A stretch of 37,493 nt of DNA from Betaproteobacteria bacterium (GTDB taxonomy: Bacteria > Pseudomonadota > Gammaproteobacteria > Burkholderiales > UBA3065): NCBI GenBank assembly GCA_009923755.1, contig RFSW01000005.1:1-37493 (forward strand). Direction: 5' to 3'. Shown here in pieces: positions 296 to 34,294 of the stretch. A program made the translations under genes and the position numbers. The notes below the pieces were generated by a model. The model ran no database searches, had not been told where the DNA came from, and was given only the letters and a program-made list of their open reading frames with translations. Each line of letters starts with the position of its first letter. Positions within the stretch are counted from its first letter, which is position 1.

Positions 296-1159
296 CTAGC
301 TCATGCGGATCAGCGCGAGCGAGCCTGATGCGAAGCCCGGCACGGCAAGCTCGAACGCCACGCCCCAGCGATTGTGTTTGAGCGGCTTCGCCAGCAACTC
401 AAGTTTCACGTTCACCAGGCTCGCGCGGGTCATCAGGGTTTGGTGGTGGGGATCGAACAAAGCGGCGAGCATCCCCATGAAACGTTGGGCGTGGGAATCT
501 GCCTCGTGCAGCGCCTTATCGCCGGCGCTGGAGTCGGGGCTGTCGGTGCCAGCCAAGCCGCCGAGCAGATTCACCAGGCTCGAGTCCATGAGTCCGAGGC
601 CGATCGCCACGTTATCTGTGGCCCGGGCGAAGACGCCGAGAAGCACCTTGCCGGAGAGGTGCTCGAAGGTCTCCAGCGGTATCGGGCGGATCTCCCAAGA
701 GCCATCGGGCACGAAGCCATCGGCCACCTCGAGCACCTGCTTGACGGTGGGAACCAACAAGGCGCTGTCGTCGCTCATGACCGGCAGCGGCTCTGCGATG
801 GCCTGGCGGACGCTCTCCAGGAGTTCCTCGTCGCGAAACGGCTTTTGCAAAATAAAGGAGACCCCGTGCGAACGCGCTTCGGCGAGGCGGATCTCGTTGG
901 TTTCGGTCGTGACGATGCCGACGCGGATGCGCTCGTGGTTGGAGTGCCGCAGCTTGATCAGCATTTCGAGGCCGGTCATCCCGGGCATATGCCAATCGGT
1001 GATGATGAGGTCGGGTTTGAGCGTAGCGGCAAGCTCAATCGCCTCGGCCCCACCCGAGACCACATGGACCTGCTCCTTCTCGTAGCCACCTGCCGTCAGC
1101 GCGCGTCGGATGATGCTCTGGGTGGCGCGGCTGTCATCGACGATGATGAACCTGTGCAT
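296..1159 (-). CDS. Response regulator: receiver domain plus CheC/CheX-like C-terminal domain
   Basis: The protein has 287 residues. Residues 1-124 are a CheY-type receiver with the acidic pair D8-D9, phospho-acceptor D55 (LIITDWHMPG), switch Thr about 84-85 and K106 (LQKPF). Residues about 136-287 are not a DNA-binding, GGDEF or HD-GYP domain. Their layout, with paired strands, a hydrophobic helix (LVNLLGGLAG) and a second helix (ALHEADSHAQRF), resembles the downstream half of the CheC/CheX/FliM fold. The Glu of the phosphatase motif is kept (E219) but the Asn is Ser (S222), so I infer a regulatory or degenerate phosphatase-like module. The start overlaps the stop of the upstream CheX-like gene by one base (TGATG), so the two are probably translationally coupled. 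No histidine kinase is in the window. The receiver is certain; the C-terminal assignment is inference. Confidence 0.85.
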   Translation of the reverse strand: MHRFIIVDDSRATQSIIRRALTAGGYEKEQVHVVSGGAEAIELAATLKPDLIITDWHMPGMTGLEMLIKLRHSNHERIRVGIVTTETNEIRLAEARSHGVSFILQKPFRDEELLESVRQAIAEPLPVMSDDSALLVPTVKQVLEVADGFVPDGSWEIRPIPLETFEHLSGKVLLGVFARATDNVAIGLGLMDSSLVNLLGGLAGTDSPDSSAGDKALHEADSHAQRFMGMLAALFDPHHQTLMTRASLVNVKLELLAKPLKHNRWGVAFELAVPGFASGSLALIRMS

Positions 1160-1653
1160 CAGACAGCCCCCCCCGGCTCATAGCCGGACATCGGATCAAA
1201 CAAGATCACCACAAGTTTCCGGTTTTGCTCGCGGGCTTCGAACAGCGCCCGGATGCCGCTGGCCAGCGAGACCAGTCGGTAGCCGTCCAGCGCCATCGCT
1301 TCTGGCAAACCGATGTCGGCAAGATTCCCGCACGGCAGATACTCGACCAAGCACCCGGAGAAAACATTGCACGCTTCAGCGCACGCATCGTCAATGTCAG
1401 ATTGGGACAGTTCGGCAGGTTCGAGGTCGAACATGACGCTAGCGAGGGTCTCGGCGTCTTCGCGGGAGATGACCAGCGCAACGCCGGCGCGACGGGAGGC
1501 GTCGTCGAGGCCCAGCGGCAGGACGATGCGGCGATCGCCTTCCGCGGTGGCCGTACCCGGGCCGTTCACCACAAGCCGGAACGTGCGGCTCTCCCGGGCA
1601 AGCGCCTCCCAGATACTGCTCAAGCGCGCTTCGATCTCATGGGGCTGCAGCAT
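1159..1653 (-). CDS. CheC/CheX-like phosphatase (chemotaxis-type)
   Basis: The protein has 164 residues when read from the ATG at 1653. The frame stays open upstream to 1773, but that part has no protein-like character. The key evidence is DACAEACN (D89 to N96) followed by P117. This fits the CheC/CheX/FliY active-site pattern D/S-x3-E-x2-N followed by a distal Pro, here 20 residues later against the usual 22. Members of this family dephosphorylate phospho-CheY-like receivers, with Glu and Asn as the acting residues. The adjoining response regulator, which overlaps by one base, is the obvious candidate substrate. No chemoreceptor, CheA or flagellar gene is in the window, so the pair may serve a signalling circuit other than flagellar motility. 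The Shine-Dalgarno is weak, and a TTG start slightly upstream is an alternative. Confidence 0.65.
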   Translation of the reverse strand: MLQPHEIEARLSSIWEALARESRTFRLVVNGPGTATAEGDRRIVLPLGLDDASRRAGVALVISREDAETLASVMFDLEPAELSQSDIDDACAEACNVFSGCLVEYLPCGNLADIGLPEAMALDGYRLVSLASGIRALFEAREQNRKLVVILFDPMSGYEPGGAV

Positions 1654-2142
1654 GTCAGGGGCGCTCGGCGATAGGACCTTCGCATTGTTCTGCGCCAATG
1701 TGACAAATCGATCACGGTCATGAGCGATGCGAGCGCAGTCTCTTGTGGCCCGAGATCGGATTGGCCAGGACATCGTTGGTCACGCTGTTCATCCGTATGA
1801 CCAGCGCCGGGAAGCCTGCCGAGCCTTGTGCACGGGCTTGGGGAGGGCGTCTCTGGCTCCCTGGATCCGGTCATCCAGGGGCCGAAATTCTTTGAGGTCG
1901 ACAAAGCCGACCAAAGCCACTATGTTAGTTATGCAAAAGTTTGCAGTTAGTCGGTGAGTCCCCGTGCGTCGCACTGGGAACCATTCCCGGATCCGATGGA
2001 TTCGTCCTCCCGGTTGACCTGCTGCGAACTTCTGCAACATGGCTAGCCCGAGTGGGCGCCGTAGGGCGGCGCTTCGTCGTGGCGGGCTTCATTTCCGGGT
2101 CCCATGGATCCGTCATCTAAAAATCAGGTATCTGGAGGCGAA
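1654..2142. other. Intergenic region of about 490 bp with degenerate repeats
   Basis: No convincing gene is seen here. The short ORFs in the track lack any recognisable domain. Three diverged copies of a short motif occur: TGGATCCGGTCATC near 1862, TGGATTCGTCCTC near 1998 and TGGATCCGTCATC near 2105. The last two sit in a longer direct match of about 26 bases with 21 identical positions. A small palindrome (GCGCCG-n5-CGGCGC) lies near 2057. A possible -35 element (TTGACC, about 2015) precedes the dehydrogenase, but no good -10 follows. The region must carry the divergent promoters for the signalling operon and the dehydrogenase; I cannot place either with confidence. Confidence 0.4.
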
Positions 2143-3403
2143 ATGGCAGCGAAGTTTACGCTTAAGGGCAAGTGGGTCTCGTTGGGTGTGGCAGCGTCGG
2201 CGTTGATGGCGGCTCAAAGCGCCATGGCGGTAGACGTTCAGGTGGAAGTGTTCCAGAAGAGCAAGAATCCCTGGGGCATGGCTTTCCTGAAGGACGGCAC
2301 CTTCTTCTTCACCGAAAAGTGCGACGGTCTTTCTGTGCGTCTTCCGTCCGGCAGCGTCAACAAGCTGCTCGGCGTGGGTGGCTCCAGCGGCTACGCCTCG
2401 GTCAGGGACGATCTGTTCTGTGATGGTCAGGCTGGTGTGCTCGGCGTCGAGGTCGATCCGAAGTTCAGCGAGAACCGGTTCATCTACGTCCGCTCCACGT
2501 CCCAGGGCGCCAACCGCAAGTACGGTGGTTACGCCAACATCCTGATGCGCATGAAGGTCAACAACGACTTCTCCGGCGTCACCGATGTCGTCGACATCAT
2601 CGATGACATGGGCTACAAGCCCAAGGCCACCAAGCATCCCTTCGGCGGCCCCGGCGCTCACAACGGCGGCATCGTCCGCTTCGGTCCTGACGGCTTCCTG
2701 TACGTGACCATCGGTGACAACCATAACGGCCCCGGTCCGCAGGATCCGAACGCACTGATCGGCAAGCTGCTGCGCGTCGACCGCGACGGCAAGGCGGCAC
2801 CGGGCAACAAGTCGCCCGGGTCGGACAAGCGCATCTTCGCCCACGGCTTCCGCAACCCGCAGGGCATCACTTTCCGCCCGGGTTCAGGCGACGTGTACCT
2901 GTCTGAGAACGGCCCGTGGCACAACGACGAGGTCACCAAGGTCGTCAATGGTGGCAACGGCGGCTGGGATCCGCGCGACAACGTCAACGGTCGTGGCGAG
3001 TGCCTATTCGCCGAACCAGATGGGTGCCGTTCCGCCGAAGGAGCGTGCCGCATTCATGCCCATGACCGACCTGAAGGCTTACCCCGCTGCGCTGAAGCCG
3101 GCATTCAACAATAACGGCCTGTCGCAAGGCATGTGTGGCAGCGCCTGGTTGGTCGGCAGCCAGTGGAAGGAATGGGAAGGTCGTCTGGCTGTGGGTTACG
3201 CCGGCATCGGCATCCACGGCACGGCGGTCGGTAACCGCATCGACATCCTGAACGTCGCGAACGACGGTTCCGGGGCCACCAAGGAGGAACTCTCCTGGCC
3301 CACCGCTACCGGTCGTCTGCGTCACCTCATCTCGGGCCCGGATGGCGCGCTGTATGTCGGCGATGAAGCCAGCGGCAACATCTACCGCGTGACCCCCCTG
3401 TAA
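2143..3403 (+). pseudogene. PQQ-dependent sugar dehydrogenase (GSDH family), split by a 1-base frameshift
   Basis: The start is the ATG at 2143 after TCTGGAGGCG, a good Shine-Dalgarno, and not the upstream ATG at 2104. Residues 1-29 are a Sec signal peptide (ending AQSAMA), so the product is periplasmic. Family landmarks include the catalytic-His segment GPGAHNGGIVRFGPDG, typical of soluble aldose/glucose dehydrogenases that hold PQQ in a six-bladed propeller, and the FRNPQG segment. The first frame ends falsely at 3114. The proper C-terminus (SPNQMGAVPPKERAAF through GNIYRVTPL) is in the +1 frame and ends at 3403. Removing one C near 3003-3004 gives continuous GECYSPNQMG, so a single inserted base explains the break. 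The full product would be about 419 residues. It may be a real pseudogene or an assembly error. A cytochrome c gene follows and is a plausible electron acceptor. No PQQ synthesis genes are present. Confidence 0.85.
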
Positions 3404-3427
3404 CATCCAAGCGTAATGTTGCGAGAG

Positions 3428-32402: not shown

Positions 32403-34294
<1,892 letters not shown>

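Follow-up and report, generated by a model that had tools for sequence, protein, structure and literature searches.

A predicted CheX-type phosphatase encoded with a regulator bearing a probable degenerate CheX-like tail and a membrane-anchored coiled-coil protein in a freshwater bacterium

Introduction

CheX proteins (PF13690) form dimers, and their known structures include those from Borrelia (3hzh, a CheX-CheY complex), Thermotoga (1xko) and Vibrio vulnificus (6vpw). The middle domain of FliM has a CheC-type fold without phosphatase activity. Regulators in which a receiver carries a CheC-family label have also been listed: in the table of a published two-component inventory, each Pseudomonas syringae strain has one 'CheC-like' regulator (PMC2222644), and its likeness to the regulator described here is one of class label alone. 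We found no description of the module reported below in the literature searched, which was mostly open-access. MotV/MotW and HubP (PMC8789113), considered because of their coiled coils and link to motility, were rejected as relatives since their architecture differs.

The module comes from a freshwater bacterium with a fragmented genome (1.99 Mb in 204 contigs, 83% complete). The window, i.e. the whole stretch of DNA analysed (37,493 nucleotides), is one entire contig, and the three genes occupy its left end on the minus strand (Table 1). The original prediction, made from the sequence alone, described an intact CheC/CheX/FliY-type phosphatase overlapping a response regulator whose own tail resembled a degenerate CheC/CheX domain. 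That observation is partly confirmed and its interpretation partly supported by the current analysis; the register of the active site in the tail had to be corrected, and the origin of the tail now stands on firmer ground.

Results

The small CheX-family gene comes first in reading order, followed by the regulator and the coiled-coil gene. The overlap predicted for the first two amounts to a single base (TGATG), the ATG of the regulator beginning within the small gene's stop codon, and the overlap is identical in the sister species. The membrane-anchored coiled-coil gene expected after the regulator is present as well; a hydrophobic stretch lies around residues 8-26, close to the N-terminus of its product, of which only 92 residues are visible because the contig end cuts the gene. 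In the sister species, the coiled-coil protein is complete at 288 aa, and the motif EKxF[LI]E is found at or near the C-terminus of all four complete homologues.

Table 1 Features of the module in the window and stand-alone relatives of the regulator tail
Feature	Position	Strand	Evidence and key residues
Small CheX-family protein, 164 aa	1162..1653	-	D89-x3-E93-x2-N96, distal P117; stop codon 1159-1161
Response regulator, 287 aa: receiver and probable CheX-like tail	299..1159	-	ORF, Pfam Response_reg 1.1e-21; stop codon 296-298
Receiver domain, residues 1-122	794..1159	-	Pfam Response_reg; D8, D9, D55, T84, K106; Ile103
Probable degenerate CheX-like tail, residues about 129-287	299..775	-	hhalign to stand-alone E-x2-N family; Arg226/Gly229
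Membrane-anchored coiled-coil protein, N-terminal 92 residues	3..278	-	ORF; hydrophobic segment; cut by contig end
Stand-alone CheX-like members (n = 15)	L016:5615-6097, L104, L030, L105-L107, L109-L117		E-V-[MLF]-N

The CheX family membership of the small protein is well supported by sequence and by modelling. The phosphatase motif noted originally is present as D89-A-C-A-E93-A-C-N96, with the distal proline at P117 within GLPEA. The match to Pfam CheX (E=1.2e-4, 22.5 bits) falls under the curated cut-off of 27 bits and marks the protein as a divergent member. Its AlphaFold model, built from a four-sequence alignment, is of fair quality (pLDDT 78.6) and of CheX type, and the best Foldseek matches of this model are CheX and CheC structures, led by 3hzh_B (E=1.7e-6). 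When aligned with a canonical CheX set by hhalign, the D, E, N and distal Pro fall in register, at modest significance (E=0.0086). The small-protein family has four members (window, L008, L009, L010), and each of them retains the D-x3-E-x2-N motif and the proline of GLP. Phosphatase activity is likely. The small protein thus resembles known CheX proteins in fold, in its active-site residues and in having a receiver gene as neighbour, but differs from them in its sub-threshold Pfam score; moreover, the partner receiver here bears an extra CheX-like tail and the gene set includes a membrane coiled-coil protein.

The receiver of the regulator had been described as normal. This holds for the acidic pair, the phospho-acceptor D55, the threonine and the lysine, which make up a complete response-regulator residue set, and for the strong Pfam match (Table 1). 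Most receivers have an aromatic switch residue three positions before the lysine; here that position is taken by Ile103, a trait common to the closest relatives, and in this respect the description needs amending.

No Pfam family matched the regulator tail. A profile search with five such tails led to a first stand-alone relative in another family of the class, situated in a cluster of MCP, STAS, CheR, CheD, CheB and CheY genes. Further stand-alone relatives adjoin a single receiver, some with CheA, CheW, CheR and CheB genes nearby. A class-wide search brought the set to 15 members across eight families, all of which contain E-V-[MLF]-N; a CheY-like receiver gene is a neighbour in 14 of the 15, and several lie in full che clusters. 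The stand-alone members scanned against Pfam gave no convincing match, the one scanned against NCBIfam gave none, and a profile comparison of the family with canonical CheX was not significant. A weak profile match, L118, was dropped as an apparently FliL-like protein.

Comparison of the tail with the stand-alone E-x2-N family by hhalign gave a probability of 95% (E=3.6e-8), and comparisons with a larger set gave E=1.3e-6 and 1.7e-9; the alignments span 138-151 columns. When the sequences are aligned, the catalytic Glu and Asn correspond to Arg226 and Gly229 of the window tail. None of the five fused tails keeps both residues, against 15 of 15 stand-alone members: the aligned pairs are Arg/Gly in the window, His/Lys in L008, Glu/Arg in L009, Arg/Ala in L010 and Ser/Asn in L013, the last two from less secure alignments. 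The E-x2-S motif originally proposed for the tail, in which Glu would be kept and Asn replaced by Ser, does not survive this comparison. The residues in question, Glu219 and Ser222 (HEADS), lie upstream of the aligned site, and the sister species has EVGP in this segment.

The structural evidence for the tail is less clear. Its AlphaFold model is poor (pLDDT 44.6), with the same helix and strand order as CheX, and its best structural matches are FliM middle domains (E=0.013 at most favourable), with CheX proteins ranking lower and none of these matches being significant. Together with the hhalign homology, the secondary-structure order and the weak FliM/CheX matches agree with a degenerate CheC/CheX domain in outline, and a CheX-type fold of the tail is probable on sequence and modelling grounds. 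We propose that the tail is, like the FliM middle domain, a non-catalytic member of this fold, although it differs from FliM in being fused to a receiver and in lying outside any flagellar gene set. The tail had also been regarded as a paralogue of the small protein. A direct profile comparison found no relation between the two, and they are therefore not close paralogues.

Since the stand-alone family had been found with a profile built from the fused tails, the receivers were ranked instead, as an independent check. A profile of the fused receivers placed those adjoining stand-alone CheX-like genes at the top (110.9, 104.0 and 95.1 bits), followed by the next-best receiver at 85.1 bits and another at 73.6. 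The regulator shares its receiver subtype (DW[HN]MP, VTTE, FIxxKPF) with gammaproteobacterial pairs of a receiver and a CheX-like gene, found in and outside che clusters. In those pairs, the receiver and the CheX-like protein are encoded by separate genes and E-x2-N is kept, whereas in the window a receiver and a probable CheX-like tail form one protein and the Glu/Asn pair is lost. The gene pair is the probable ancestral arrangement. Tail and receiver both point to one such pair. This speaks for a fusion after which the active site was lost, and the regulator probably arose in this way. A CheX-like gene beside a lone receiver is a frequent arrangement in the class, and this part of the finding is therefore ordinary. 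Two long ORFs found with the CheX profile, L076:3874-4830 and L078:3673-4740, end in a receiver; their sequences suggest fusions of the opposite order, with the CheX-like part first. Fusion of the receiver/CheX-like pair may therefore have occurred repeatedly.

The neighbourhoods of homologous regulators show which parts of the module travel together. Each of the five regulator loci has the coiled-coil gene, and four also have the small CheX gene, its adjacency to the regulator being kept in each. The order is CheX, regulator, coiled coil in the window, L008 and L009, and coiled coil, CheX, regulator in L010. The Pseudoalteromonas locus (L013) has the regulator with a divergent coiled-coil gene and no small CheX gene, and the phosphatase is thus not obligatory. 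The coiled-coil protein thus has a closer tie to the regulator than the phosphatase has, and of the two it is the better candidate for a partner of the tail; we infer a contact between tail and coiled-coil protein.

The module had been placed away from any chemotaxis locus. This holds within the window, but the sister species has two MCP genes 5' of the module, and about 1.2 kb separates the closer of them from the small gene. Given the contig end and these MCP genes, the separation is uninformative. Chemotaxis signalling does exist in the host, as indicated by 8 MCP and 12 CheW-domain matches, which belong to a genome with several chemosensory clusters, and by a CheZ encoded on a chemotaxis cluster contig. 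With CheZ present, the flagellar pathway probably has a phosphatase of its own, and the small CheX protein is unlikely to be the main one there.

Discussion

We propose, with a probability of about 0.6, that the module is an off-switch circuit consisting of a CheX phosphatase, a fusion-derived regulator with a non-catalytic tail and a coiled-coil partner. The small CheX-family phosphatase would most likely remove the phosphate from Asp55 of the regulator, whose gene overlaps its own. The regulator would descend from a CheY-like receiver gene that became fused to the CheX-like gene next to it. Its tail, which has no catalytic Glu/Asn pair and would hence be incapable of dephosphorylation, may have become a binding or output domain. 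The likeliest partner of the tail would be the adjoining membrane-anchored coiled-coil protein, perhaps through its conserved C-terminal EKxFIExRFL, and the phosphate donor, CheA or another kinase, would be encoded elsewhere. We infer the phosphatase activity, its target and the output of the circuit. The module is a variant of CheX-receiver signalling, its extra components being the fused degenerate tail and the coiled-coil gene. The broader view, to which we give roughly even odds, is that such regulators form a class: a receiver and CheX-like fusion that has lost its active site and gained a membrane-coupled output or docking tail, with a second, intact CheX recruited as the reset.

The part of this proposal that concerns the tail could be mistaken in two ways. 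The tail might be an unrelated output domain that shares with the stand-alone family only a general alpha/beta layout. The low confidence of its AlphaFold model and the missing Pfam match would fit such a domain, but hhalign alignments of 138-151 columns (E 3.6e-8 to 1.7e-9) would not, nor would a helix and strand order as in CheX with FliM and CheX as the best structural matches; the partner receivers, moreover, independently indicate the same gene pair. We therefore regard an unrelated tail as very unlikely. Alternatively, the degenerate tail could pair with the small CheX protein, a hetero-oligomer through which the regulator would bring in its own phosphatase, and the coiled-coil protein would compete with this pairing at the membrane. 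Both tail and small protein apparently have CheX-type folds and they are co-encoded in four loci; however, no profile similarity connects them and the pairing is dispensable in Pseudoalteromonas. This arrangement is a tentative and rather doubtful alternative to a tail docked on the coiled-coil protein.

The assignment of the regulator as the phosphatase target must likewise be weighed. The small CheX protein could act mainly on other receivers, e.g. the CheY of a chemosensory cluster, in which case the overlap would serve co-expression and the signal of the regulator would decay by itself. The host has several chemosensory clusters, and the Pseudoalteromonas regulator and coiled-coil pair manages without a small CheX. 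Against this stand the one-base overlap in both the window and the sister species, the adjacency to the regulator in four loci, the commonness of a CheX-like gene beside one receiver, and the CheZ already encoded on the chemotaxis cluster contig. Action mainly on other receivers is therefore unlikely in our view, and dephosphorylation of the regulator itself is preferred.

If the proposed off-switch circuit is correct, the module would represent a phosphatase turned into an output domain through fusion and loss of the catalytic pair. FliM may have evolved from a CheC-like ancestor by a step of this kind. Apparently intact stand-alone relatives of the degenerate tail would then persist in other bacteria. 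The module would offer a minimal three-gene system for testing the role of a non-catalytic CheX-like domain, and the finding also draws attention to a family of stand-alone CheX-like proteins, encoded in chemotaxis clusters, for which Pfam and NCBIfam apparently have no model.

The module recurs in a few distant bacteria, but the full set is rare: of 399 genomes sampled in the order, 3 have it. Named records with it are a Betaproteobacteria MAG from Lake Lanier, Rhodoferax sp. BLA1 and a Proteobacteria MAG, and the two MAGs are apparently identical with two of these 3 genomes. No relatives were found among the viral contigs searched, and PDB sequence searches returned chance matches only. Among plasmids, the whole regulator was covered only by two large Pseudoalteromonas replicons. 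The isolate Rhodoferax sp. BLA1 has, after the module and on its strand, an apparent PAS-GGDEF gene (L009:8408-9988); the C-terminal part of its product is GGDEF-like, a possible link to cyclic-di-GMP. Two other genes in the window appear to be split. A sugar dehydrogenase-like gene (2104-3406, plus strand) has an apparent frameshift giving overlapping ORFs (2104-3114 and 2948-3403), which may reflect an assembly error or a pseudogene. An FtsH-like gene (32403-34291) is apparently broken into two ORFs meeting at 33710, through either an assembly error or a genuine break.
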